DNA from: Planctomycetota bacterium
GTDB lineage: Bacteria; Planctomycetota; Phycisphaerae; Phycisphaerales; SM1A02
Length of the DNA stretch: 53,051 nt
Direction: 5' to 3'
Assembly (NCBI GenBank): GCA_022563315.1
Contig: JADFNO010000006.1
Location: 1 to 53,051, forward strand
The notes beneath the pieces were generated by a model. That model searched no databases. It was not told where the DNA came from and worked only from the letters and a program-made list of their open reading frames with translations. This document shows, one piece after another, positions 1 to 52,852 of this stretch. How positions within the stretch are numbered: the first letter of the stretch is position 1; every line of letters begins with the position of its first letter. The translations under genes were made by a program, and so were the position numbers.

Positions 1-916
1 AGTTCCATTTCCCACGCATTATTACCGTGCTGTTACACACCGACATCTCCACCCATCCCGATGAGAACGCCCTCTTCAAGCGCCATTCGAAAAACCCTTT
101 TCTTGACGGTAATTCGTGCTGGCTCTGGATCGATCCCTTTTCTCCATCCTGAATACCCCTGAATGGCCTCGACCGCTGCCAGAGTCGGATACCACACGAC
201 ACCCCTCTCGGCCATCATCCGATAGATTTCCCTTGTTCCGCCATCTCCGTGTTCGATCGTCTCGACACCAGCCAGAATAGCTCGACGCATGCCTTCTTCT
301 GTGGAGGCATGAGCTACCAGAGCTCGGCCCGTGCTTGCAGTTGTCCGCTGCATTAGGGTCAGTTCCTCAAGAGAAAAGCTCGGCATCGCCTCTGAGTTAG
401 GACCCCAGCGATAGTCGGCGTAAACCTTGATGAAATCAGCTCCTTTTCCCATCTGCTCTCGCGTGACTCGTATCAGATCATCGACGCCAGCAGCGGTCTG
501 GGCTCCAAGCGGCGGCTCGAAATCGGGATGGAATCCTTTCGGACCGTAGCTCCCGGTCGCTACAATCGCTCTGCCAGCCACCAGCATTCGGGGACCCGGA
601 ATGACGCCTTTTCGGATTGCCGTCTTTATCCCAACATCAGCGTAATGGGCACCCTCAGAGCCAAGATCTCTCACAGTAGTAAATCCTGCATGCAGGGTCG
701 CGCGGGCGGCCACACCCGCTCGTAGAACGCGTTCCGCGCGAGATTCTTTCAGGACCTGGTCATTCCAGGAGGTCTCGCTGTAGGGATGCAACAACAGATG
801 GGAATGACCTTCAATGAAGCCTGGAGATAGCGTCATACCCGTCAGGTAGATCACCTCTGCCCGAGCGGGGATGGGAAGGGTCGATTCCTCACCAACTGCG
901 GCGATCAGATCGCCCG
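1..916 (-). pseudogene. Amidohydrolase remnant, joined to dus and interrupted by an in-frame TAA
   Basis: This is the amidohydrolase half of the fused frame, continuing past the left edge. Homology-like sequence starts abruptly near 916 (GDLIAAVGEES...) with no start codon of its own, so the 5' end has been lost and replaced by the dus 3' end. A TAA at 33-35 interrupts the frame between GGDVGV and QHGNNAWEMEL. Family members run straight through this point with an HGxNAxExEL segment, so the stop looks like a mutation and not a natural end. Metal ligands HxH, Lys, two His and the GGD aspartate are all present upstream of the stop. It may be a recently decayed gene, or a sequencing error may have created the stop. 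Confidence 0.6.
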
Positions 917-2069
917 GCCCGCGGCGGCGGCTCGGTGCGGGCCACTCGACGGTCGAGTCGTACCATGTGGCGAGCACCGCCCGCCAATCGTTGTGATTCT
1001 TCACGCGGATAAAGGCATCTCGCACGGCCCGCGCCTCCGGATGCAACTCGCTGTACTTGATCCCGAACTTGCGCATCATTTTTGAGGCCCGTCGCTCGCC
1101 ATGTAAACGCACCGACAGTTCAAAATGTTCGAGCAGCGCCTGACGTTGCTCGGCAAGCGTAGGTGTGGCGGGTTCCTCACCGGCCATGAGCTGCCGGGCC
1201 TGGCGGAATATCCACGGATTACCGATACAGCCTCGTGCGACGCCGACCGCGTGAACGCCGGTGAATTCGATCATCGCGAAGATGTCGTGGGCTTGGAAGA
1301 CGTCACCAGAGCCGAAGATGATCTTATCCGGATGGCGCTTCACGAGATCGCGTAAGAATTCCCACTGGCTCGGCCCGATGTACTTCTGCTGCACTGTTCG
1401 GCCATGCACGGTTGTCCACGCATAGCCAAGTTCGTAGGCGGCGTTGAAGATGCGATCAAAGTTGCATGCCATCTCCGGAGTGTCGTCGTACGATCGTCGT
1501 AACTTCACCGAAGTGGGGATATGACCGGGCACGACCTCACGCACGGCTTGCAGCACCGCGATCGCCCCCTCCGGGTCCGTCAGCAGATGCCCGCCGCGGT
1601 TGCGCTTCCTGATTTTTTTCACGGGGCAGGCGAAGTTGACGTCGATGACGTCGTAGTTCATCGAGACGAGGATTTCGCAGCCGCGCGCCATTTCATCGGG
1701 GTTCGTGCCCATGATCTGGCCGGCGATGGGGTGGTCGTCGAGACCGGCAGCGCGGTTCTCATCAGGATCGCCTGTGCCACATTCAGCCGCCAACAAATCG
1801 GGGTCCTCGCGCACGCGACCCTTGCCGCCGTTGATCAGCGTAATGTCCAGGAGCGCTTCGGTGACACAGTAGGGGCAACCATGCCGCCGCGCGACGAGTC
1901 GCATTGCCGCGTCGGAGTACCCAGCCAAGCCTGCTTGGAAGAACGGCGCATCGAAGCCGGGTATGAGCTGACTGATGCGCGAATCGAGCATCATACCTTC
2001 AGCGATCCGCTCAATTGGGCGATCGAATCGGCGGCGCGTCGGCACGGTTGGGTCGAGATTGACAGACAT
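33..2069 (-). CDS. tRNA-dihydrouridine synthase fused to a truncated amidohydrolase
   Basis: The 678-residue frame has two unrelated parts. Residues about 27-372 form a TIM-barrel dihydrouridine synthase, which reduces uridine in tRNA with FMN and NADPH. The catalytic Cys148 lies in NFACPVKK, followed by SVKLR (187-191), TVHGRT (220-225) and GSGDV (253-257). From about residue 385 it changes to a metal-dependent amidohydrolase of the imidazolonepropionase-like group: an AEVIYLTGMTLSPG strand, metal motif GHSH (421-424), a KVYADY lysine motif, VAHAST and ETIEHGD. The frame stops right after GGDVGV. The amidohydrolase lacks its first 30 or so residues, and its expected continuation lies in the same frame beyond the stop. 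The Dus part is complete at about 370 residues and is probably active. The start at 2069 is the only upstream ATG; Met27 is an alternative. Confidence 0.85.
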   Translation of the reverse strand: MSVNLDPTVPTRRRFDRPIERIAEGMMLDSRISQLIPGFDAPFFQAGLAGYSDAAMRLVARRHGCPYCVTEALLDITLINGGKGRVREDPDLLAAECGTGDPDENRAAGLDDHPIAGQIMGTNPDEMARGCEILVSMNYDVIDVNFACPVKKIRKRNRGGHLLTDPEGAIAVLQAVREVVPGHIPTSVKLRRSYDDTPEMACNFDRIFNAAYELGYAWTTVHGRTVQQKYIGPSQWEFLRDLVKRHPDKIIFGSGDVFQAHDIFAMIEFTGVHAVGVARGCIGNPWIFRQARQLMAGEEPATPTLAEQRQALLEHFELSVRLHGERRASKMMRKFGIKYSELHPEARAVRDAFIRVKNHNDWRAVLATWYDSTVEWPAPSRRRGPGDLIAAVGEESTLPIPARAEVIYLTGMTLSPGFIEGHSHLLLHPYSETSWNDQVLKESRAERVLRAGVAARATLHAGFTTVRDLGSEGAHYADVGIKTAIRKGVIPGPRMLVAGRAIVATGSYGPKGFHPDFEPPLGAQTAAGVDDLIRVTREQMGKGADFIKVYADYRWGPNSEAMPSFSLEELTLMQRTTASTGRALVAHASTEEGMRRAILAGVETIEHGDGGTREIYRMMAERGVVWYPTLAAVEAIQGYSGWRKGIDPEPARITVKKRVFRMALEEGVLIGMGGDVGV

Positions 2070-2188
2070 CGCCTGTGATGATAGAGCAGGCGCCTGCCGT
2101 GAGTCATCTCAACCATTATGGAGCGATGAAAGACGAGTCCGCATCGTGCCAATGACGGTAATGGCTCTGCCTGCCCAAGGGAGACTGT

Positions 2189-2734
2189 ATGGATCAGACC
2201 CAACAGCAACAGATCTACGACATTACCCGGCCGCACCAGAAGCTGCTGACGCTGTACACGCTGCGCAGCCTACTGACTACGGTGCTGTTTCCGATCATCT
2301 TCCTTCGGCTGTATTTCAAGTACCAGACGCTGAAGTACCGCTTCGATGGTGAGGGTATCGCGATGTCGTGGGGGCTGCTGTGGCGCAAGGAGATCAACCT
2401 GACGTACGCTCGGATTCAAGACATCCACGTCTCGCGCGGGCTGCTGGAGCGCTGGTTGGGGCTGGCGACGGTGCAGATTCAGACGGCGTCGGGAAGCGGC
2501 TCGGCGGAAATGTCGATTGTGGGGTTGACCGAGTATGATGCGCTTCGCGATTTTTTGTATTCCAAGATGCGCGGGGCGCGCTTCGGCGACCAGGATCCTG
2601 TTTCAACAGGCGACGGGCGAGGGATTACTTCGGCGACCGCGCCCAGCGGAGCCGATGAGGCCGTCGCGCTGCTGACGGATATTCGAGATGAGATTCGCGC
2701 ACTTCGTCGTCGGCAGGAGGATGCGGGCCGATGA
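2189..2734 (+). CDS. Bacterial PH-domain (DUF304/YdbS-like) membrane protein
   Basis: This 181-residue protein has a hydrophobic segment at about residues 25-45 and then a bPH_2 (DUF304) domain at about 47-130, with the family-type pattern YRFDGEGIAMSWG...NLTYARIQDIHVSRGLLERWLGLATVQIQTASG. The tail (140-181) is polar and ends in a basic helix, EIRALRRRQED. YdbS-type proteins are short membrane proteins of unknown biochemical role, often encoded beside a larger YdbT-type partner; that is the case here, since its stop overlaps the next start (ATGA). A good ribosome site (AGGGAGA) precedes the ATG by about 6 bases. Function beyond membrane association is not known. Confidence 0.8.
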   Translation: MDQTQQQQIYDITRPHQKLLTLYTLRSLLTTVLFPIIFLRLYFKYQTLKYRFDGEGIAMSWGLLWRKEINLTYARIQDIHVSRGLLERWLGLATVQIQTASGSGSAEMSIVGLTEYDALRDFLYSKMRGARFGDQDPVSTGDGRGITSATAPSGADEAVALLTDIRDEIRALRRRQEDAGR

Positions 2735-3489
2735 TCTTCAAGCGCATCAAACCACCACTATTGCGGTTGCTCAGAGCACCGACCGAGCCGCCGGAACCGC
2801 CTATTGGATCGCCGGAATCTGTGCAGACGTTCCGGGCTGCGCCGAACTTCCTTACGTATCAGATCATCACGTGGGGACTGGGCTTTGCGGCCGGCCTGAT
2901 CAGTGAGATTGTGTTCGTTGTCTTGGCGCATAGGGATGAGAGCGGCGCGTGGGAGGAAATCGCCCTTGTCTATGCGGTTGTTGGTATCACGCTTCTTCTT
3001 ACGATCGTGAAATATTTCTTGATTCGGCTGGACTACGACATGCGCTACTACATCGTCACGGACCGGAGCCTGCGCATCCGTGAAGGTGCGCTGTTGATCC
3101 ACGAGGCGACGTTCACCTACGCCAACGTGCAGAATCTGAAGATTCATCAAGGCCCGATCGAACGGTTACTGGGGATTTCCAACCTGGTGGTGGAGACAGC
3201 GGGCGGAGCGGGCGGCAAATCCGAAGGCAAGCGCGGCCCCGGGGCGTTCCCACATATGCACGGGCATCAAGGTGTTTTTCGAGGTATCAAGAACCCGGCT
3301 GAGGTGCGCGATCAGATCCTCGCCTTGCTCAAGGGGTATCGTGATGCGGGGCTGGGCGACCCCGAAGACCGCCGCCGAGCGATGCTGCCCGTGCCGTCGT
3401 CGGCTGGGTATTCCTCTCCCGCAGCGTTGACGCGCCTGCGTGAGATCCGCGACGAGCTGCGGCTACTGAACCGCACGGCTGCGGATTAG
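2731..3489 (+). CDS. Bacterial PH-domain (YdbS/YdbT-like) membrane protein, partner of the upstream gene
   Basis: The 252-residue product has two membrane segments (about 47-68 and 80-98) followed by a bPH_2 domain (about 100-200): YYIVTDRSLRIREGALL, then TFTYANVQNLKIHQGPIERL and LGISNLVVETAGG. The glycine-rich break GGAGGKSEGKRGPGAFPHMH between domain strands is unusual and may be a flexible loop. The ATG overlaps the stop of the preceding PH-domain gene by 4 bases, so the two are probably translationally coupled and may form a complex. Both end in a similar amphipathic helix (EIRDELRLLNR here, EIRDEIRALRR upstream), which suggests a common ancestor or an interaction surface. Confidence 0.8.
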   Translation: MIFKRIKPPLLRLLRAPTEPPEPPIGSPESVQTFRAAPNFLTYQIITWGLGFAAGLISEIVFVVLAHRDESGAWEEIALVYAVVGITLLLTIVKYFLIRLDYDMRYYIVTDRSLRIREGALLIHEATFTYANVQNLKIHQGPIERLLGISNLVVETAGGAGGKSEGKRGPGAFPHMHGHQGVFRGIKNPAEVRDQILALLKGYRDAGLGDPEDRRRAMLPVPSSAGYSSPAALTRLREIRDELRLLNRTAAD

Positions 3490-22416: not shown

Positions 22417-22425
22417 CGCGTCGTG

Positions 22426-22510
22426 GCGTCGGGAGGCCGCCCGCTAAACGTGGAATTGATGTGTTGGCGCCGATCGCAACGTTTAGCGGCAGGGCCCCGC
22501 CCCGCGCGTT
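22426..22510. repeat. Repeat family A, copy 1 (upstream of RAYT-A)
   Basis: This 85-base element has inverted arms CCGCTAAACGT (22441-22451) and ACGTTTAGCGG (22479-22489), bounded by GGCGTCGGGAGGCCGC on one side and GGGCCCCGCCCCGCGCG on the other. It begins 10 bases after the purL stop and precedes the transposase start. Copies flank the other side of the same gene and occur at 29093. Confidence 0.85.
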
Positions 22511-22533
22511 CTTTGTACGTAGGATGCGTTGCG

Positions 22534-23139
22534 ATGATCTGTGCCTATCACGCTATCTTCTGTGCGTACGGATTCTGGTTGCCCAACGATCCGCGCGGAT
22601 CGTGGTCGGATTGGGTTCGTTCCTGGGAACTATTCCGTTACGGGCGAGCAACAAAGGTCGCAACCCGACGATCGGTCGCCGGCGTGCCTCACGATGACCG
22701 ACAACGTTCTGCTGCCAAGAGTGCGCTGCGGTATAGGCCTGTCGTTTTTACCGGCCGGCAGGCGCTGTCCGTCGCCAACGGATTTCGTCAGGCCGTAGAC
22801 GACGCAAATTACTCCATTCATGCGTGCGCAATTTTACCGCAGCATATACACACCGTGATCGGCCGCGACGGTCGATCGGTCGAGCAGATCGTGTCTCATC
22901 TAAAACGTGCAGCTTCGCGCCGGTTACGCGAGGACGGAATCCACCCGCTTCAGGATCATGGTGGGAAGGACGGAACGCTTCCTTCCCCCTGGGCACGCAA
23001 ATGCTGGAAGGTATTCATCGATCGTGACTGCGACCTCGACCGGGCCATTTCGTACGTTCAGCAGAACCCGATCAAGGAAGGACTTCGCGCCCAAACATGG
23101 TCGTTTGTTACCTCACGGCGTCCGGAGGCCGCCCGCTAA
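22534..23139 (+). CDS. RAYT-A, REP-associated tyrosine transposase (IS200-like Y1 family)
   Basis: The 201-residue protein begins with the YHAIFCAYGFWLPNDPRGSW motif shared with RAYT-B. The HUH motif is in LPQHIHTVIG, and the candidate nucleophile tyrosine is in AISYVQQNPIKEG. RAYT proteins of this class are single-copy, domesticated relatives of IS200/IS605 transposases that act on REP palindromes as single strands. The ATG at 22534 is chosen because the upstream frame runs through the family A repeat. Its stop TAA lies inside the downstream copy of that repeat. The gene separates purL from purQ. Confidence 0.88.
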   Translation: MICAYHAIFCAYGFWLPNDPRGSWSDWVRSWELFRYGRATKVATRRSVAGVPHDDRQRSAAKSALRYRPVVFTGRQALSVANGFRQAVDDANYSIHACAILPQHIHTVIGRDGRSVEQIVSHLKRAASRRLREDGIHPLQDHGGKDGTLPSPWARKCWKVFIDRDCDLDRAISYVQQNPIKEGLRAQTWSFVTSRRPEAAR

Positions 23140-23203
23140 ACGTGGGTGCGATGGATGCGTGTCGTTTTCAACGTTTAGCGGCGGGGGCCCCGCCCCGCGC
23201 GTT
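23117..23203. repeat. Repeat family A, copy 2 (downstream of RAYT-A)
   Basis: This copy shares both ends with copy 1: GGCGTCCGGAGGCCGC, arms CGCTAAACGT and ACGTTTAGCG, then GGCCCCGCCCCGCGCG. The interior differs, so arms and ends are the conserved parts. It overlaps the last codons of RAYT-A and provides its TAA. It ends about 50 bases before purQ. Confidence 0.85.
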
Positions 23204-29083: not shown

Positions 29084-29092
29084 GATTCAATA

Positions 29093-29177
29093 GCGTCCGG
29101 TGGCCGCCCGCTAAACGTGGGGGCGTAGGATTGGTGCCGATTGCAACGTTTAGCGGCGGGGCTCCGCCCCGCGCGAT
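29093..29177. repeat. Repeat family A, copy 3 (no transposase attached)
   Basis: Same ends and arms as the copies flanking RAYT-A: GCGTCCGGTGGCCGCCCGC, CGCTAAACGT, ACGTTTAGCGGCGGGG and GCTCCGCCCCGCGCG. It lies 10 bases after the zinc-ribbon gene stop. The sequence between arms differs from the other copies. Confidence 0.85.
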
Positions 29178-29198
29178 CGGGCGCACGTGTAGCACTAC

Positions 29199-29229
29199 GG
29201 CGTCCGGTGGCCGCCCGCTAAACGTGGGA
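29199..29229. repeat. Repeat family A, left half only (copy 4)
   Basis: GGCGTCCGGTGGCCGC followed by CCGCTAAACGTGGGA matches the left half of family A; the right half is missing. It lies 22 bases after copy 3, at the 3' end of the convergent lipoprotein gene. It may be a deletion product or a half-element. Confidence 0.75.
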
Positions 29230-31838: not shown

Positions 31839-33647
31839 ATGATCCAGTCCAAAGATACTCAACCGAACAACGACCGCTTTGGTCGTCCATTACTGGGGGC
31901 AGACAATCCCTCGTCTACGGCGCAAGGCACCACCCTCGGAAGTTTTGCCAACCCGACCGCGATTGGCGGCCCCTTGACGTTCTCGTCGCCCGACACTCCC
32001 GGCATGCCCGCGCCATCTCCCCTCACCGCCTGGGATTTTCTCCCCCCCGGCGCAGAATCCGACAAGTCTTCCTCCGTGCCTTTGTGCCTTCGTGCCTCCG
32101 TGCCTTCCCCTATCACGCAACTGGAGCACGCGCGGCTCGGCATTATCACGGATCAAATGAACCGCGTGGCCGAGCGCGAGACTCACCTGACGGCCCAACA
32201 GGTGCGCGATGAAGTCGCCGCCGGCCGTATGATCATCCCCGCCAATACGGTGCATCTGTCGTACAAGCTCGATCCGATGTGTATCGGCAGGGCGTCGCGC
32301 ACGAAAATCAACGCCAACATGGGCGCATCGCCCGTCTCCTCTGGCACCGATGAAGAATTAGAGAAACTCGAATGGGCGGTGCGATGGGGCGCAAGTACGG
32401 CCATGGATTTGTCAACTGGGGGTGATCTCGATGCGTGTCGCGAGGCGATCATTCAAAATGCGACGGTTCCCATCGGGACGGTGCCGATCTATTCCATGAT
32501 CATTGGGCGCAAGCTTGAGGATCTAAATGCTGAAATCATCCTTGCGGAGATAGAACATCAGGCCAAGCAGGGCGTTGACTATATGACGGTACACGCGGGT
32601 GTGCTGCGCGAACATCTTCCGCTGGTGAAGAAAAGGCTCATCGGGATCGTCTCGCGCGGCGGTGCGCTGCTGGCCAAATGGATGCTGCACCACAATAGAC
32701 AAAACCCCATGTACGAATTGTGGGACGACATCTGCGCGATCATGCGCCAATACGATGTCTCGTTCTCCATCGGCGATGGATTACGGCCGGGCGGTTTGGC
32801 GGATGCCACCGATGATGCGCAGCTTGCGGAGCTCGAAACGATCGGCGAGCTCACCGAGCGCGCGTGGGCGCACGGCGTACAAGTCATGGTTGAAGGGCCC
32901 GGCCACGTGCCGTTTGATCAGATAGAATATAATATGAAGTTGGAGCGCCGACTCTGTCACGGCGCGCCGTTTTACGTGCTCGGCCCGCTCGTGACTGATG
33001 TTTTCCCGGGTTATGACCACATCACAAGCTGTATTGGCGCTACGGCGGCGGCGTATCACGGCGCTTCGATGCTTTGTTACGTTACGCCCAAGGAACATCT
33101 GGGGCTGCCAAAGAAAGATGATGTCAAGCAGGGGTGTATCGCGTACAAGATCGCTGCTCATGCTGCGGACGTCGCCTTGGGCATTCCGGCGTCGCGCGAT
33201 TGGGATGATGAGTTGACCAAGGCCCGAGCTGCGCTGAATTGGCAGCAGCACTTTGATCTTTCATTCGATCCCGATACCGCTCGCGCGCTTCATGATGAAG
33301 ATCTCGATGTTGATACGGAGTTCTGCGCGATGTGCGGGCACGATTGGTGTTCGGTCCGCATCTCCAAGGAGATTCAGGAGTTCGTTTCCGGCAAGGATCA
33401 GCAGTATGCGTGGGAGAACGCCAAGGTTTCCGCCGCGCTGACGATCGAGCAGAAAGAGATTCTTCAGAATCGAGGCGTCTTGAGCCCGAAACAGATTCAT
33501 GCGCTGGCGACGAAAACCAACCGCACGATGACCGGCGCGGCCGCTTCAGCGGCCAGCGACTCTTCAGGCCCCGCCAAACTCTCATGTCACTCCGACTACG
33601 TCGATGACGAGTCGGCGAAGAAGATGCAGGAAGACGCCGCAATTTAG
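31839..33647 (+). CDS. thiC: Phosphomethylpyrimidine synthase (HMP-P synthase), with an in-frame repeat insertion
   Basis: ThiC rearranges AIR into the pyrimidine of thiamine, using a 4Fe-4S cluster and SAM. The cluster motif CxxCxxxxC is at Cys496, Cys499 and Cys504 (CAMCGHDWC). Other motifs: [46 protein letters not shown], and [14 protein letters not shown]. Residues about 77-90 ([14 protein letters not shown]) come from a DNA repeat of GTGCCTT-like units inserted in frame just before the conserved PITQLEHAR segment. The TAG stop lies within a partial family B repeat. A TPP riboswitch precedes it; an AAAGGAGG ribosome site sits 8 bases before ATG. Confidence 0.96.
32070..32108. repeat. GTGCCTT-type repeat inside thiC
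   Basis: Four near-repeats of TCCGTGCCTT/TTGTGCCTT/TCGTGCCT/CCGTGCCTTC lie in a row and are translated in frame as [13 protein letters not shown]. Units of this kind are common in intergenic repeats of planctomycetes. It lies in the N-terminal linker region of thiC, between a Pro-rich stretch and the first conserved core motif. Confidence 0.7.
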
Positions 33648-33745
33648 CCGCGCCGCATCTTCATTTAGCCGCGCCGCTTGCGGCGCGCTCTTCGCGAATG
33701 GCACACTCCCCCCCCGAAGAGCGCGGGGCAAGCCCCACGGCTAAA
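33642..33745. repeat. Repeat family B, copy 1 (after thiC, before RAYT-B)
   Basis: A half-unit ATTTAGCCGCGCCGC is followed by the full element: ATTTAGCCGCGCCGC, TTGCGGCGCGCTCTTCG, a variable stretch, CCCCGAAGAGCGCG, then GGGCAAGCCCCACGGCTAAAT. The inverted arms are GCGCTCTTCG/CGAAGAGCGC and ATTTAGCCG/CGGCTAAAT. The thiC stop TAG is inside the half-unit. It ends about 30 bases before the RAYT-B start. Confidence 0.85.
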
Positions 33746-33775
33746 TGCGACCGAATGAAGTAGACTTCGACGATC

Positions 33776-34339
33776 GTGATCCTGGCGTTTCACAGTATCT
33801 TCACGACCTACGGAACGTGGCTTCCCAACGAGCCGCGCGGCTCATGGTCAACCTTCGTTGCCTCATGGGAGCTCTACCGGTTCGGCAAGGCGACAACCGT
33901 CAACACGAGGCGATCCGTCGCTGCAAATACGTATGATCGAAACACAAAGACACAGATGCAGCGGGTGCTGAAATATCCGCCGGTGCGATTCACCGGCAAC
34001 CAAGCACGCACAGTCGCAATGGCGTTCACCGAGACGCCATATACGCTGCACGCTGTCGCGGTCATGCCCAGTCACGTTCACATGGTTCTCGGCTATACGC
34101 GACGAGACATACGGCGCGCGATCGGACATATCAAGTCGCAAGCGACTCGGGCGCTGCGGACACAGGGATGGTTCGCTGCGCAGTCGCCGTGGACAGATCA
34201 CGGCTGGAATGTGTATCTGAATACCGATCACGATGTACAGAGAGCGATTGACTACGTTTACGAGAACCCTCTGCGTGAAGGTTTACGACAACAACGCTGG
34301 TCGTTCATTACTCCATATGCCCCAGCGTCCGCCATGTAG
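33776..34339 (+). CDS. RAYT-B, REP-associated tyrosine transposase
   Basis: The 187-residue protein begins with FHSIFTTYGTWLPNEPRGSW, shared with RAYT-A, and has the HUH motif in MPSHVHMVLG and the candidate nucleophile in AIDYVYENPLREG. It is bounded by two family B repeats and is likely the enzyme that acts on them. The start appears to be GTG (33776). Its stop TAG lies in a repeat half-unit, exactly as at the end of thiC. It is related to RAYT-A but associated with an unrelated repeat. Confidence 0.88.
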   Translation: MILAFHSIFTTYGTWLPNEPRGSWSTFVASWELYRFGKATTVNTRRSVAANTYDRNTKTQMQRVLKYPPVRFTGNQARTVAMAFTETPYTLHAVAVMPSHVHMVLGYTRRDIRRAIGHIKSQATRALRTQGWFAAQSPWTDHGWNVYLNTDHDVQRAIDYVYENPLREGLRQQRWSFITPYAPASAM

Positions 34340-34445
34340 CCGCGTTGCATCCTAATTTAGCCGCGTCGCTTGCGACGCGCTCTTTGTGTACGGCGAACGG
34401 CGCGCACACCCCCCGAAGAGCGCGGGGCAAGCCCCACGGCTAAAT
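34335..34445. repeat. Repeat family B, copy 2 (after RAYT-B)
   Basis: Same design as copy 1: a half-unit with TAGCCGCGTTGCATCC, then ATTTAGCCGCGTCGC, TTGCGACGCGCTCTTTG, a variable stretch, CCCCGAAGAGCGCG, and GGGCAAGCCCCACGGCTAAAT. The base changes in the hairpin CGTCGC/GCGACG are compensatory. It lies upstream of the acid phosphatase gene, whose frame opens through it. Confidence 0.85.
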
Positions 34446-34502: not shown

Positions 34503-35342
34503 ATGTTGAGAATACACAAAACCAACTATTGGACGCTTGTACTTCTCGTAACCAGCTGCGCGCAGCCTCAGCATCCGAATCTCAATAGCACGCTGTGGGC
34601 GCTGACGAGCGCGGAATACGAAGCTGCGACGCGAACCGTGTACGAAAGCGCTGCGCGAACGTTGGCTGAGGCCAAAGCGGACCTGACCTGGACCGCGGCG
34701 CTGGAACAGAGACAAGACCTCAACGATCCGAAGGTTCAGGAGACGCTCAAGCCGGCGGTTATTCTGGATATCGATGAAACGGTGCTGAATAACGCACCGT
34801 ACTTTGCACGAATTATTCGTGATGAGAAGCGTGTCGCAACGGGCACCTGGGATGCGTGGGTGGCGGAGCATCGCGCAAAGGCGCTTGCTGGCGTCATTGA
34901 CTATGTCCGCGAAGCGAAACGCCAAGGGATCGCTGTCGTATATCTGACCAACCGCGCGTGTCGAAAGCGCCCCGGCAGTGATGCGTCTTGCCCGCAGCGC
35001 AGCGATACGATCGCGAATTTGCAAGAGGTGGGATTGCCGGCGCTTGGGCCGGATGATCTGGTCTTGTTGCGCAACCAACAGCCGGGCTGGGACCGAGATA
35101 AAGGTAAACGCCGAGCGTTCGTGTGCGAGAACTACCGCATCCTCCAAATCTTCGGCGACAACCTCGGCGACTTCGCCCCCGCCCCCGGAAATAGAGATTC
35201 GACGCCCACACCTGATCAGCGTCGAGCCATGATTGCCCAATACCATGACAAGTGGGGCTCAAAGTGGTTCATGCTCCCCAACCCAATGTACGGCCCCTGG
35301 CTCAACATCCTCGGCGATGAGCCCGAGGCGTATCTTGAGTGA
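34503..35342 (+). CDS. Lipoprotein e(P4)-like/class B-C acid phosphatase (HAD)
   Basis: The 279-residue product starts with a hydrophobic segment and lipobox-like VTSC (Cys19), so it is likely lipid-anchored and exported. The HAD core follows: AVILDIDETVLNN with Asp89 nucleophile and Asp91, VVYLTNRACRK (motif II), and IFGDNLGDFAP (motif IV). The P4 family dephosphorylates nucleotides for uptake at the cell surface. The open frame begins earlier inside the family B repeat, so ATG 34503 is preferred. The next repeat (family C) begins directly after its stop. Confidence 0.9.
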   Translation: MLRIHKTNYWTLVLLVTSCAQPQHPNLNSTLWALTSAEYEAATRTVYESAARTLAEAKADLTWTAALEQRQDLNDPKVQETLKPAVILDIDETVLNNAPYFARIIRDEKRVATGTWDAWVAEHRAKALAGVIDYVREAKRQGIAVVYLTNRACRKRPGSDASCPQRSDTIANLQEVGLPALGPDDLVLLRNQQPGWDRDKGKRRAFVCENYRILQIFGDNLGDFAPAPGNRDSTPTPDQRRAMIAQYHDKWGSKWFMLPNPMYGPWLNILGDEPEAYLE

Positions 35343-35345
35343 TCG

Positions 35346-35398
35346 ATCAGAGCCGACCGCTGTGCGGGCGGATCGCGACCACAGGTCGCGGCTCGGTT
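35346..35398. repeat. Repeat family C, copy 1 (before RAYT-C)
   Basis: AGAGCCGACCGCTGTGCGGG, then CGGATCGCGACCACAGGTCGCG and GCTCGG form nested hairpins: CGCGACC/GGTCGCG inside, and a CCGC...GCGG pair and GAGCC/GGCTC outside. It begins a few bases after the acid phosphatase stop and ends 11 bases before the RAYT-C ATG. Confidence 0.85.
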
Positions 35399-35409
35399 AT
35401 ACTGATCGC

Positions 35410-35982
35410 ATGTCAGTTAATCCGCTTGCGTATCACATCACGTTCGGGACGTACGGCACGCGCTTGCACGGCGATCCGCGCGGAACGGTGGATCGAAAAG
35501 CGAACAAGCCCGGCGATCCGATCATCGGCGCGGAACCCGATTGGGAGCGTATGGAACGATCATCTCTGAGGTTCCCAGCAATGCTTTTGACTACCGAAAA
35601 TCGCTCGTTCATCGAGTTTGTCGTGCCGTCGTTATGTGATCGTGGTGGATGGGAGCTTCATGTGTGTGCAGCGAAGCCGGATCACGTGCATGTGCTGTTG
35701 GCGACGTCTCGAGAGGCAAAGCCGGTGCGCCGATGGTTGAAGACGTGGCTTTCGCAAGCGCTCAACGAGTGCCTGGGATCAGAGCCGCCCGCTGTGCGGG
35801 CGGACCGCGACCACAGGTCGCGGCTCGGTAACGAGGGGCTCGGTAACGAGGGTGGTGAGGATCGAAATCGCTCTTGGTGGTCCAAGGGCGGCAGCATCAA
35901 ATGGGTGTGGGACGAGAAGTACTTTGACAACGTATACGACTACATTGTGCGCCAGCGGATCACCGTTTATTCGATCGACTAG
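35410..35982 (+). CDS. RAYT-C, REP-associated tyrosine transposase with in-frame copy of its own repeat
   Basis: The 190-residue protein begins YHITFGTYGTRLHGDPRGTV and has the HUH motif in KPDHVHVLLAT; the candidate nucleophile motif is YDYIVRQ near the end. It is more divergent from A and B. Between about residues 123 and 141 a second copy of its neighbouring repeat (C2) is translated as SEPPAVRADRDHRSRLG, followed by two LGNEG repeats. This inserts foreign residues between the helix LSQALNECLG and the SIKWVWDEKYF region, so its activity could be lost or altered. The ATG at 35410 follows repeat C1. Confidence 0.85.
   Translation: MSVNPLAYHITFGTYGTRLHGDPRGTVDRKANKPGDPIIGAEPDWERMERSSLRFPAMLLTTENRSFIEFVVPSLCDRGGWELHVCAAKPDHVHVLLATSREAKPVRRWLKTWLSQALNECLGSEPPAVRADRDHRSRLGNEGLGNEGGEDRNRSWWSKGGSIKWVWDEKYFDNVYDYIVRQRITVYSID
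35778..35832. repeat. Repeat family C, copy 2, inside RAYT-C
   Basis: Nearly identical to copy 1 (AGAGCCGCCCGCTGTGCGGG, then CGGACCGCGACCACAGGTCG and CGGCTCGGTAAC). It interrupts the coding sequence of the adjacent transposase without a frameshift. GGCTCGGTAACGAG is present twice in a row just after it. Confidence 0.9.
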
Positions 35983-36084
35983 CGCCCAACTTCGCCCATC
36001 AGAGTCTGCGGCTGTGTCGGCGGTGGGCGGGTACCCCGGCGGTGCTGCCATAGTCGGCCAATCTGACGTTAGGCGGAGCTTCTA

Positions 36085-37323
36085 TTAAGCGCCGCGTGCA
36101 GTATTCTCCGAGCGCTTCTTGCAATTCTCCACTAACTCCGCGCGGCTATGTACGTCGTGTTCCTTGTAGATTTTTTTGACGTGAGCGTGGACGGTGCCGT
36201 AGGCGACGCTCATGCGTTTGGCGATCTGTTTGTACATCAGACCTTCCAGTAGGCCCGCGAGGACTTCTTGTCGGCGTGGGGCTGGGCGGGAGTGGGGGAC
36301 GTACGCCTTTTTGCGTATGTAGGGCGCTTCTTCGAGCGGGCGTTTGACTTCGCAACCGTAGAGCAATCCGCCGGAGATGTGGGTGATGAAGTCGTTCCAT
36401 CCGGTGCGGCCGGTGAGGGTTGTGTAGCGAACGCGCCAACAGTGATGGCAGGCAAAGCTGCGCGGGCCGGTGGCTTTGATGGGGTCGGAGAGGCCCGGAT
36501 GCCAGGTTCCGGAGAGGCGGAGTTTTGGGGTGTTGTTGGTGGGAGAAATACCCGGACCTTCGCAAGGCTCAGGTCCGGCTTCGGGGGCGACTTCGAATCC
36601 TTGATCGATACCCACAGCCTGCGGGAGGGTCCAAACGCATTGCGGGCCGAAGAGGCGTGTGACTTGTCGGTTGCAGGGGGAATGAGTGCCGTCGGGGTTG
36701 AATCGTCCCGGGCAGATGAACTTCCAGCCACGTTGTCGCAGTTTGCCACGATAGTTACGCCAAATCGGGGTGCGCGTGACGATCAGCTCGTAGTTCTTGG
36801 GAATCCGCTGCCAGAGTGTTTGCCACAGCGTTCCCCAGATTCGATCGGGCGCTTGACCTCGATTGGCGTTGGGGTCGATTGGTGATGGGCAGTAGACGAT
36901 TGGCACCGGTTTGCCGCGCTTGCCGTGTGAATGGGCGGAGTCGTATCGTGCTCGGAGGATGCCTTCGGCGATCCATCTTCGTATGGATTCCTCGTGTCGG
37001 CCGAGCCTGGCGGCGGCGCGGGTCCAATCAATGCCGGGCCAGGGGATCATGACAGGCTTGCAGAGGTCGCGAATGACGGAGCCGGTGAGGATGACGTCGT
37101 GTTCAAGCCGTTGTTGGATAGCGCGAGATGGGTCGATGGCGCAGCGATAGTCGTTGATGCGGGTGTCCGAAGCGCGAATGCAGAGGCACCACGGGCGCAT
37201 CGGACGAGTGAGGGCGGGTGTCAGACGTCGCCGGGCGCGATTGGCGGCTTCGAGCCGGTCACGGCGGACACGGCGGCTGATGCGGTTCCATGCTTCGAGC
37301 AAATTACAGTCGATCTGGTCCAT
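36085..37323 (-). CDS. Zinc-finger/LuxR-type helix-turn-helix protein, unknown target
   Basis: The 412-residue protein has three parts. A middle region (about 105-145) contains WTRAAARLGRHEESIRRWIA, a helix-turn-helix. Then two cysteine pairs appear, CPGRFNPDGTHSPC and CHHCW, that could bind zinc. The last 70 residues are a GerE/LuxR-type DNA-binding domain: RRQEVLAGLLEGLMYKQIAK, then MSVAYGTVHAHVKKIYKEH and a closing SRAELV. It has no receiver domain. The start at 37323 (ATG after GGAAGGA) is preferred over an upstream GTG. Regulatory function is inferred from the domains; targets are not known. Confidence 0.7.
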   Translation of the reverse strand: MDQIDCNLLEAWNRISRRVRRDRLEAANRARRRLTPALTRPMRPWCLCIRASDTRINDYRCAIDPSRAIQQRLEHDVILTGSVIRDLCKPVMIPWPGIDWTRAAARLGRHEESIRRWIAEGILRARYDSAHSHGKRGKPVPIVYCPSPIDPNANRGQAPDRIWGTLWQTLWQRIPKNYELIVTRTPIWRNYRGKLRQRGWKFICPGRFNPDGTHSPCNRQVTRLFGPQCVWTLPQAVGIDQGFEVAPEAGPEPCEGPGISPTNNTPKLRLSGTWHPGLSDPIKATGPRSFACHHCWRVRYTTLTGRTGWNDFITHISGGLLYGCEVKRPLEEAPYIRKKAYVPHSRPAPRRQEVLAGLLEGLMYKQIAKRMSVAYGTVHAHVKKIYKEHDVHSRAELVENCKKRSENTARGA

Positions 37324-37484
37324 AGAAAAGGCGTCCTTCCATAGAGGGACGAACGGCACGTTCGGCGCGCGCAGGATTGACCGCGGCCTAAGAGCACGCG
37401 AAGATCATGCGTGATGTTCGACGTTAGCGAACCGCATAGAGGCCGCGTGACGCTTTGGGCCAAGCTTGCGGGTTTACGCTGTGA

Positions 37485-50221: not shown

Positions 50222-50989
50222 ATGATGAAACACACGTGGACATTGCTGGCCGTTATTGGATTAGCCGTGTCAAGCGCATTGGCGGACACGACGTACATGT
50301 CGGGCGTGGTCACGATGACGCGCCTCGAACTCGCCCTTGGTGACCAGATTATCGCGACGGGCGACCTCACGATAATCTGCGATGAAGATGCGATTATCGA
50401 TGGCGTTATCCTCGGCGACCCGGGGGTGCGGATTGAAATCCGCGCCGACAACACGATCGAAATCCTCGGTTCCATATCTTACGGCTAACGGCGCGAATGG
50501 CGTCGATGTCGAGGAGGCAGGTCAGAGTAGCGGCGACGTGGTTCTTGTCGCAGACACTATCGAGCCTCCGGTCTCCACCATCGCCGCCGGGGCGGGCGGC
50601 AGCGCAGGCCCCTCGGGCGACGGCGGTGACGGCGGCACCGTCGAATTCGTTTACGATGTCATCTACGTGGACACCAATTCGAAAGTACAGGCTGGTCAGG
50701 GCGGCATGGCATCAATGGTTTCACCGTGGCGGCCAGAGACGGCGGATTCAGCGGCGCAAGTGGCGACTTAGTGATGACAGCCGCAGAGGAAGCCGAGGTT
50801 ATTATTATTGTTGATCCGTGCGCAGACGGGGCCGCCGGCGCGGGCGGGGCGGCCGGGGCTGGAAGTGCCGGGTTTCCTCCCGACTGCGCCCCAGGTGCTG
50901 CCGGGACAGCCGGAGTTGCAGGCACGGCGGGCACTGCCGTCAATACACCTGTAGCAGGTCCGAATGGACATGACGGTGGTGTATACTGA
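50222..50989 (+). pseudogene. Glycine-rich secreted protein gene broken by two compensating frameshifts
   Basis: The first 88 codons start well (AAGGAG, ATG, signal peptide ending in ALA). Near 50480 the frame shifts by one base, giving TANGANGVDVEEAGQSSGD and then a glycine-rich segment GAGGSAGPSGDGGDGG. Near 50705 a second shift returns to the first frame (GINGFTVAARDGGFSGASG, then GAAGAGGAAGAGSAG). With one base removed and one added, the product would be about 255 residues with no stop until 50989. Homologous collagen-like Gly-Ala repeats fit a surface or extracellular protein. The two shifts could be real decay or sequencing errors. Confidence 0.7.
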
Positions 50990-51790
50990 AGCCATGACGT
51001 CAGTGAAAACGCGGTGCCATCATGCCCGCAGTATTGGCCGGGTGGTGAGAAACGTCTTGGCGGCGCTGTTTTTGAGCTTCCTCGGGTCGGCGGCGATTGT
51101 ACTCGCCGCCGACTATTTTCTGTTTAGGAGCGGAACGTGGACTGGCTGGACGATGGTTGCCTTTTATCCCAGCCATGAAGATGTTCTCTGGTGGGAGTCC
51201 CAGGTTGGTCCGCTCCCTCCCCCTACTTCCACTGCTGGCATGGTGATGCCCCGCCAATCTCGCGGCCGTACTGGGTTGACCAGTGGCTCGGATGCCCTCA
51301 CGGCCTCGCGTTTAGCTTACGGACTGATGGGCGTACGGATGGAAACGGCGTCGGAGTGGATTCGCGGTAGTGTGCTCGTCTCCGAGACGAAGCATGCCTG
51401 GCACATCGGCGTGGAACTCCCCGGCGGCATGGCCTTTGAACGAATCTACATCGGCGCGCCAGGGGACGCACTAGCGCATCCGACGTACGGGACATGGGAT
51501 TTCAGAATCTTGCCAATCGGTTTGGCGATCAATTCCTTGTTCGTGGCCGGTCCACTTTTTGTGCTGGTAACCATATTGGCGTGGACCACGGCAAGAACAT
51601 TTCGCAGGATCAAGGGAATCGACCGGCGAGCCAGAGGACAATGCGAGGTGTGCGCGTACGTGCTAATTGCGGGCCAAAACCCCTGCCCGGAGTGCGGGCA
51701 TCACCGGAAATCAATCGAGTATAAAGCCGCGAGTTCTGGTAATAAGCAATCGTGACGCACCGCGATACGATCCCGGCCTTTCGCCCCCCC
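50917..51790. repeat. Tandem duplication, unit 1
   Basis: The end of the glycine-rich gene and the following membrane protein gene form a segment that is duplicated at 51926-52830. The shared parts include GGCGGGCACTGCC versus GGCGGGCGCTGCC in the glycine-rich tail, most of the coding sequence, and the 3' flank CAATCGTGACGCACCGC. Similarity drops quickly at both ends. Confidence 0.8.
50994..51755 (+). CDS. Membrane protein with C-terminal zinc ribbon, copy 1
   Basis: The 253-residue product has a membrane segment near the N-terminus (about 17-37; NVLAALFLSFLGSAAIVLAA), a central extracytoplasmic-like region, a second membrane segment (about 178-200) and a C-terminal zinc ribbon CEVC...CPECG with a basic tail. 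It is about 75-80% identical by eye to the next gene, with the last 40 residues nearly identical (NPCPECGHHRKSIEYKAASS). ATG 50994 is the likely start; the frame is open to 50964 inside the end of the glycine-rich gene. Function unknown. Confidence 0.75.
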   Translation: MTSVKTRCHHARSIGRVVRNVLAALFLSFLGSAAIVLAADYFLFRSGTWTGWTMVAFYPSHEDVLWWESQVGPLPPPTSTAGMVMPRQSRGRTGLTSGSDALTASRLAYGLMGVRMETASEWIRGSVLVSETKHAWHIGVELPGGMAFERIYIGAPGDALAHPTYGTWDFRILPIGLAINSLFVAGPLFVLVTILAWTTARTFRRIKGIDRRARGQCEVCAYVLIAGQNPCPECGHHRKSIEYKAASSGNKQS

Positions 51791-51849
51791 GCGAATGGTT
51801 ACATCAACGACGATGGCCTCTCAGTCCGTACAGATATTACGCCTCGGCG

Positions 51850-51867
51850 CCCCCGGCAAGCCGGGGG
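51850..51867. repeat. Palindrome family D, copy 2
   Basis: The 18-base palindrome CCCCCGGCAAGCCGGGGG is identical to the one inside purL, followed by TTATAT instead of CTAAAT. It lies between the two duplicated genes. Confidence 0.8.
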
Positions 51868-51925
51868 TTATATGACTCAAGGCGTTGGATTTCCGGTAAT
51901 CCGCGCCTGGCCGTTCACATAAGGC

Positions 51926-52830
51926 GGCCGGTGTGGCGGGCGCTGCCACCAATACGTCGGTAGCATGCCACAATGGAAATAATGGTGTAGAGTGCGATAA
52001 TGAGCATGGTGCTTAATGAGTGCTAACGCCGTGACGGCCGCGAAAACGCAACGCCATCATGCCCGCAGTATGGTCGGCAAGGTGAGAAACGTCTTGGCGG
52101 CGCTGTTTTTCAGCATCCTCGGGTCGGCGGCGATTGTCCTCGCCACCGACTATTTTCTGTTCAGGAGCGGAGCGTTGAGTGGCTGGACGATGGTTGCCCA
52201 TTCCTCCAGCCATGATGATGTTATCTGGTGGCAGTCGCAGGTTGGTCCGCTCCCTGCCCCCGCTACCACTGCTGACATCATGATACCCCGCCCTGCTCCC
52301 GGCCGTACTGGGTTGAGCGGTGGCGCGGTTGGCCTCTCGGCCTCGCGTTTATCTGACGGATTGATGAACCTACGGATGGAAACAGAGTCGAAGTGGATGC
52401 GCGGGAGCATACTTGCGTCTCGAACGAAGTATGCCTGGCGCATCGGAGTGGAACTCCCCGGCGGCATGGCCTTGGAGCGAATCTACATCAGCGCGCCAGG
52501 GGCCGCACTAGCGCCTCCGACGCTCGGGGGATGGGATTTCAGAATCCTGCCAATCGGATTAGCGCTCAATACCTTGTTCGTGGCCGGTCCACTTTGTGTG
52601 CTGGTAACTGTATTGGCGTGGGCCACGGCAAGAGCATTTCGCAGGATCATGGGGGCAAGCAGCCGGCGAGCCAGAGGACAATGCGAGGTGTGCGCATACA
52701 TTCTAATTGCGGGCCAAAACCCCTGCCCGGAGTGCGGCCATCACCGGAAATCAATCGAGTATAAAGCCGCTAGTTCTGGTAATAAGCAATCGTGACCCAC
52801 CGCCATACCATCCCGGCCTTTCTCGCCCCA
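51926..52830. repeat. Tandem duplication, unit 2
   Basis: Second copy of the segment described at 50917-51790. It carries a degenerate version of the glycine-rich gene's 3' end (no longer an open frame) followed by the second membrane protein gene and a shared 3' flank. Confidence 0.8.
52016..52795 (+). CDS. Membrane protein with C-terminal zinc ribbon, copy 2
   Basis: The 259-residue paralogue of the gene at 50994 keeps the same layout: N-terminal membrane segment, extracytoplasmic region with ELPGGMALERIYISAPG, membrane segment around 182-205 and zinc ribbon CEVC...CPECG. Differences are concentrated in the outer region, suggesting divergence in ligand contacts or drift. The start ATG has no clear ribosome site. 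Confidence 0.75.
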   Translation: MSANAVTAAKTQRHHARSMVGKVRNVLAALFFSILGSAAIVLATDYFLFRSGALSGWTMVAHSSSHDDVIWWQSQVGPLPAPATTADIMIPRPAPGRTGLSGGAVGLSASRLSDGLMNLRMETESKWMRGSILASRTKYAWRIGVELPGGMALERIYISAPGAALAPPTLGGWDFRILPIGLALNTLFVAGPLCVLVTVLAWATARAFRRIMGASSRRARGQCEVCAYILIAGQNPCPECGHHRKSIEYKAASSGNKQS

Positions 52831-52852
52831 GCAACGACGGCTGCGGTAGCGG

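Follow-up and report, generated by a model that had tools for sequence, protein, structure and literature searches.

The RAYT-C locus

The window, i.e. the whole stretch of 53,051 nucleotides that we analysed, comes from contig JADFNO010000006.1 of a Planctomycetota bacterium (assembly GCA_022563315.1). It encodes a small transposase, RAYT-C, downstream of a thiC homologue. The features used below are as follows, where G numbers denote genomes and L numbers loci.

31839..33647, + strand: thiC homologue, a syntenic anchor common to G071, G380, G010 and G311
35345..35397, + strand: upstream 53-nt repeat copy (core 35350-35394), with two non-Watson-Crick stem pairs
35410..35982, + strand: RAYT-C, a Y1/HUH transposase gene of 190 aa, with the HUH motif, the tyrosine and the Y1 fold
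Within RAYT-C, + strand: catalytic parts, namely HUH residues 92-94 (DHVH codons 35680-35691), Y178 (35941-35943) and Q182
35764..35874, + strand: coding region of an enlarged 37-aa loop (residues 119-155) between the helix 103-122 and the WW motif
35777..35829, + strand: internal 53-nt repeat copy in RAYT-C (core 35782-35826), with all stem pairs Watson-Crick
35822..35851, + strand: two exact tandem copies of the 15-nt unit GGCTCGGTAACGAGG, the first of which starts within the internal core and takes in its last 5 nt
36085..37359, - strand: convergent gene 3' of RAYT-C, which by eye we take to be HTH/LuxR-like, with homologues near RAYT-C in G071 and G380

RAYT-C is a Y1/IS200-type transposase. 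Its sequence match to PF01797 is weak (E 0.0053, under the family cut-off), and it stays below the cut-off of the NCBIfam model for REP-associated tyrosine transposases, NF047646 (16 bits vs 80). Y1_Tnp is hit at E <= 0.01 by each of the 11 sequences in the family alignment, and a profile finds ISDra2 TnpA with E 0.01. We predicted the structure of RAYT-C with AlphaFold2 (pLDDT 75, pTM 0.75), and a Foldseek search with this model found ISDra2 TnpA (E 8.6e-5), IS608 TnpA lower down, and a weak match to the REP-bound RAYT 4er8 (E 0.086). In the family alignment H92 and H94 are invariant, Y178 is near-invariant and Q182 is kept. REP-type hairpins flank the gene upstream in the window, and on both sides in G010 and G005.

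Three other features of the window are worth recording. RAYT-B (33776-34339, in the stretch 33662-34344) is a second transposase with its own flanking repeats, located between thiC and the next gene; in G001 and G002, which belong to the same genus, this stretch is found at the same place, inverted and about 79-81% identical. Another dispersed family of hairpin repeats, CCGCCCGCTAAACGTGG ... CAACGTTTAGCGGC, has several copies at 22423-23203 and 29090-29228. In the region 50986-52832 a long direct repeat of 300 nt (85% identity) and another of 179 nt (92%) have the same spacing of about 1040 nt, which suggests a tandemly duplicated gene.

A copy of the flanking repeat inside the transposase gene

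The initial annotation had reported that RAYT-C carries, in frame, a near-identical copy of the repeat upstream of its start, and our repeat comparison within the window confirms this. The direct repeat 35345-35397 / 35777-35829 has 51 of its 53 nt identical (96%) on the same strand. The starts of the two copies are 432 nt apart, i.e. 144 codons, so both copies fall in one open frame. From the end of the upstream copy to the ATG at 35410 the distance is 13 nt. The internal copy had been placed at 35778-35832, which gives the right location with limits a few bases off.

The repeat unit consists of a 45-nt core, GAGCC...GGCTC, with 5 nt to its left and 3 nt to its right. The core can form two 8-bp hairpins with 3-nt loops plus a 3-bp outer stem, and the internal core encodes E125-L139 of the protein. 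The internal copy folds with z = -4.7 as DNA and z = -3.6 as RNA, and none of 200 shuffles equals it in either case. When a 33-nt core was searched with up to 3 mismatches in the 3.76-Mb assembly, matches were found at just these two places, and the reversed control pattern gave none. A covariance search, in which 150 of 3273 candidates in this assembly were scored, also returned the same two places only. Further places were found by the covariance search in G071, G380, G311 and G010, with 150 of 676 to 3415 candidates scored per genome. Both known copies in G000, the genome of the window, and three of the places in G010 are situated at RAYT-C (150 candidates scored per genome).

No target-site duplication is seen in the sequence around the internal copy. 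The initial annotation took the GGCTCGGTAACGAG duplicate as a possible mark of the insertion. The duplicate is on one side only, and as its unit takes in the final 5 nt of the repeat core, it is a frame-keeping slippage younger than the repeat and no insertion scar.

In the predicted structure the insert lies between the helix 103-122 and the strand 162-166. Residues 132-152 have pLDDT below 50 and are predicted to be disordered, a prediction that comes from a shallow alignment, as the model was built on 11 sequences.

Loop repeats in the relatives of RAYT-C

We searched 151 near relatives, and genomes sampled by order (400), family (181), class (397) and phylum (392), with overlap between the samples. 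The survey loci were picked by similarity to RAYT-C or its insert-free paralogue and are hence biased toward relatives of RAYT-C. In the phylum search, matches outside the class have at most 80.6 bits, similar to other transposase groups. The subfamily, defined by the WWxxxGS motif, has 49 loci after removal of duplicates, of which 46 are full length; L063, L126 and L128 are truncated and were left out of the flank scan. The relatives named here are metagenome-assembled genomes of Phycisphaerae and other Planctomycetota.

Only six of the 46 full-length loci carry an insert, with loops of 37 aa in the window, 29 in both G071 and G380, 23 in G010, 19 in G094 and 18 in G005. In the other 40 loci the loop between the helix and WW is 8-14 aa long. 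A hairpin repeat is present in all six long loops. In four of them (window, G010, G005 and G094) this repeat corresponds to the flanks of the gene itself. The loop repeats of G071 and G380 match copies elsewhere in the genome or genus, and the loop/flank scan gave no match between them and the flanks adjoining the transposase gene. In G005 and G094, which are more distant relatives, the loop repeats are their own flanking repeats, different from those of RAYT-C.

We scored the match of each of the 46 full-length genes to its own flanks. The four best matches, with scores 48, 26, 20.5 and 20.5, are all in the loop. These scores were reached by 0, 1, 6 and 6 of 2070 controls with mismatched flanks, whose median is 11. 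The highest controls mostly involve the insert-bearing genes, and once those are removed the control maximum is 20.0 in 1800 pairings. It might be argued that there is no true repeat here, only chance or GC-rich coding similarity, as the region is GC-rich and short matches between unrelated loci do occur, as the control median indicates. This explanation, to which we give almost no credence, is refuted by the own-flank score of 48, where the 2070 control pairings reach at most 26, by the covariation described below, and by the absence of the segment from close paralogues.

The survey also gave an observation on another arrangement. In L026:1-3342 and L028:1-2526 a long open frame for a class I tRNA synthetase, presumably of the valyl type as judged by eye, includes the in-frame sequence of a related Y1 transposase. 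Pfam domains in both of the two scanned are tRNA-synt_1 on either side of Y1_Tnp, plus Anticodon_1. By eye L019, L024 and L052 have the same arrangement, with the repeat-like peptides SRDREGA and PLPHGRGS at the borders, and there are many more open frames of 980-1690 aa around such transposase matches. The literature searched gave no report of a Y1 transposase within a tRNA synthetase frame, and this arrangement may be more surprising than the finding on RAYT-C.

Age and number of origins of the insert

The initial annotation read the internal copy as an insertion, and proposed a comparison with homologues. The segment is indeed absent from the close paralogues L033 and L006, whose loops have 11 aa without the repeat vs 37 aa in the window. 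It is present in the orthologues, and hence it is not recent. The order of thiC followed by RAYT-C is common to four genomes, i.e. the window, G071, G380 and G010. The orthologues in the latter three, which represent two other genera, have a two-hairpin repeat in the same loop, between HUH and the helix with the catalytic tyrosine. In a tree calculated without the loop columns the four genes form one clade with support 98/81. The segment is therefore an old part of the protein as far as the thiC-locus orthologue is concerned, which does not hold for the wider subfamily, with its 6 insert-bearing loci out of 46.

A recent self-insertion into RAYT-C alone, perhaps a self-limiting one, would agree with the 51/53 identity between the internal and upstream copies and with the absence from close paralogues. 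It is hard to reconcile with the repeat in the same loop of syntenic orthologues from two other genera, and we consider it improbable. An older loop copy could possibly have been replaced recently, as the core in the window fits those of G071 and G380 better when inverted (38 vs 35 of 45). Self-limitation is not visible either. The catalytic residues are kept, and in the 118 codons before the loop G071 and G380 differ by 12 synonymous and 11 amino-acid-changing codons, which suggests purifying selection.

On the tree the insert needs three changes, and the strongly supported branches force only two. A single origin of all six inserts in one clade is rejected (p 2.3e-5). Most simply, these sequences indicate that the insert predates the split of the three genera and was gained anew in G005 and in G094; loss and regain are also possible. 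The number of own-repeat gains in the loop would thus be at least two and most simply three.

The window, G071 and G380 loop copies have an identical offset of 18 nt and an identical frame, neither of which is shared by the G010 copy. The shared origin of the orthologue inserts therefore rests on the tree and the synteny rather than on the junction. Three other genomes bear on the history of the locus. G311 has no RAYT-C between thiC and the next shared gene, and has there a lone repeat of the same design (L144:1498-1545), which may mark a lost gene. In G002, from the genus of the window, 35340-37436 is missing, i.e. everything from the repeat through the convergent gene, and as the entire block is absent this genome is uninformative on an insert-free RAYT-C. 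In G001 the contigs stop on either side of the place of RAYT-C.

Resemblance of the loop copies to the repeats of their own genome

We aligned seven repeats: the three orthologous-loop sequences of the other genomes, a copy in a G071 fragment, the two copies of the window and one intergenic copy from G311. They align over 45 nt with no gap, and 95.5% of the cells pair. Six pairs have changed on both sides, a covariation score that none of 500 shuffles reaches, and all five stem pairs that differ between the window and G071 loops are compensated.

The loop copies resemble the repeats of their own genome or genus more than the orthologous loops of other genera. The loop copy of the window has 43/45 identity to its own upstream copy, that of G071 has 44/45 to the G380 loop and 43/45 to the G071 fragment, and that of G010 has 40/45 to another G010 copy. 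Between loop copies and the orthologous loops of other genera the values are 33-38/45 in the better orientation. The loop and upstream copies of G010 have a TGC apical loop vs TGT in the other G010 copies inspected. Judged from these alignments, this own-genome resemblance appears to come either from repeats being exchanged or inverted, or from their co-evolution with the transposase. In the G071 fragment (L045:1564-1731) the 3' portion of the transposase gene is present a second time, with the loop repeat as its precise starting point, as would be seen if a segment that was moved or deleted had ended at the repeat. The repeat in it is better kept than the surrounding coding sequence, with 43/45 identical vs 79% over the whole alignment.

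Each lineage could also have had its own repeat inserted separately into the same loop, with the thiC-linked orthologues included. That the repeats closest to every loop copy are those from the same genome or genus, and that G010 differs in offset and frame, would fit with this possibility. Still, four of the four orthologues carry the repeat, three of them share the 18-nt offset and the frame, and one gain is simpler on the tree, so we regard separate insertions as a minority view that deserves some weight.

Another explanation is that the internal repeat is a working cis element under selection, where binding of the transposase, or of some other factor, to the hairpins of the transposase gene or its mRNA would limit synthesis of the transposase or mark the gene. 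Five loop copies have retained the two-hairpin design over genus-level time, with compensated changes, and in the window all pairs of the internal copy are Watson-Crick, compared with two non-Watson-Crick pairs in the upstream copy. The loop has 1 nucleotide difference in 87 between G071 and G380 vs 33 in 459 outside, which is suggestive only (p 0.029). However, the 45-nt repeat taken alone, with 1 difference in 45, is not significantly conserved (p 0.35), and the synonymous changes are 0/29 in the loop vs 16/153 outside (p 0.08). Moreover, two stem pairs are broken in the G010 loop copy, 40 of the 46 subfamily loci manage without the insert, and exchange can equally give likeness to the repeats of the same genome. 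We hence consider a cis element rather unlikely.

Our analysis favors as the probable explanation that a repeat of the transposase's own REP type was inserted and tolerated in a surface loop of RAYT-C, and was then kept matching the repeats of the genome by exchange or selection. The insert is real and older than the split of the genus of the window from two others, and the gene has stayed open with its catalytic residues kept. Beyond this lineage, repeats of the gene's own family have entered the same loop in one other lineage or more, with two being the simplest count. We propose that the two-hairpin repeat is moved in single-stranded form, and mainly over short distances, by the transposase or by a relative of it, and such local movement would be the reason why repeat copies cluster round the transposase gene. 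Insertions in the gene would persist only where a stop-free, frame-keeping insert is harmless, which in RAYT-C would be the disordered loop. The loop copy would stay a member of the repeat family of the genome and keep the hairpin design that the transposase should recognise, either through repeated exchange or inversion with other copies or through selection.

Why the same loop is used

In the wider set, three of the four own-repeat insertion events that we infer are in the loop, which makes up 7.1% of the core (binomial p 0.0014, with the events counted post hoc, after the data were seen). The fourth event, L025 in G126 (L025:1501-2022), has its own flanking repeat just 5' of the HUH motif with an in-frame TAG adjoining; it was the sole standout when we scanned 41 other full-length homologues for their own repeats. 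An insertion hot spot due to a target motif was considered and rejected, as CnGA is found in 22 of 40 empty loops vs 20.5 expected. With no enrichment of the target motif in the empty loops, the site is left explained by tolerance alone. The simplest account would be tolerance in the loop that the model predicts to be disordered, following local insertion by the presumed cognate transposase.

Comparison with published systems

The phenomenon is already known in kind, and is extended here to another transposase group. In TnpA-REP subclass 2.4 a REP is inserted in frame in the tnpA-REP gene between the HuH and Y motifs, and the accessible text of PMC6006769 calls the in-gene REP unique to this subclass, with some members of subclasses 2.7 and 2.8 also having one. 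RAYT-C is similar in that its own-repeat core (residues 125-139) is in frame between H94 and Y178 and matches its own flank. However, subclass 2.4 as described there has the motifs Y-I-x-N-N-P and NH[IFV]H and REPs with a GT[AG]G foot, and is found mostly in Cyanobacteria and Bacteroidetes, whereas RAYT-C has YIVRQR and DHVH, a CnGA foot and a 45-nt two-hairpin unit, and is from Planctomycetota.

In other respects RAYT-C is similar to the Class 3 TnpA-Y1 proteins in the accessible text of PMC6006769, which are from Planctomycetes and have a related core and flanking hairpins with a CnGA foot. The signature given there for Class 3 is Y----Q and NHVH, vs Y---Q (Y178, Q182) and DHVH in RAYT-C, and that text reports no own-repeat insertion for this class. 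By eye, the CnGA foot precedes the hairpins at 14 of 15 repeat places (L171 excluded, L169 on the coding strand); the G010 loop copy has no CnGA foot. As RAYT-C lacks the 2.4 motifs and Y----Q and has the CnGA foot, we call it class-3-like and file it in neither group.

REPs occur in many genes (PMC3733652). The intragenic REPs and the Rickettsia palindromic elements in the accessible part of that source are likewise palindromic repeats kept in frame inside coding genes. Their host genes are unrelated to the repeat, whereas the host of the RAYT-C insert is the presumed transposase of the repeat itself. We found no report of own-repeat insertion in planctomycete transposases in the literature covered, which took in few subscription journals. 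What is new here is the group to which the host gene belongs, an age at the level of genera, gains in separate lineages, and the likeness of the loop copies to repeats of their own genome.

Implications

The hairpin pair in the gene might have a function, in that the transposase reads its own gene or message (self-limitation), or in that the gene holds a protected master copy of the substrate. We view this as possible but doubtful. The in-gene repeat would then have been maintained in several genera, and would have undergone exchange or co-evolution with the other repeats of the genome.

From this finding, own-REP insertion would seem to extend beyond subclass 2.4. It also bears on an open question, i.e. 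how low-copy, vertically inherited REP transposases persist. A presumed substrate placed in a dispensable loop of its own transposase offers a natural test, as the hairpins can be removed with the peptide intact, and each gene bearing its own REP indicates which repeat its transposase can be expected to recognise.
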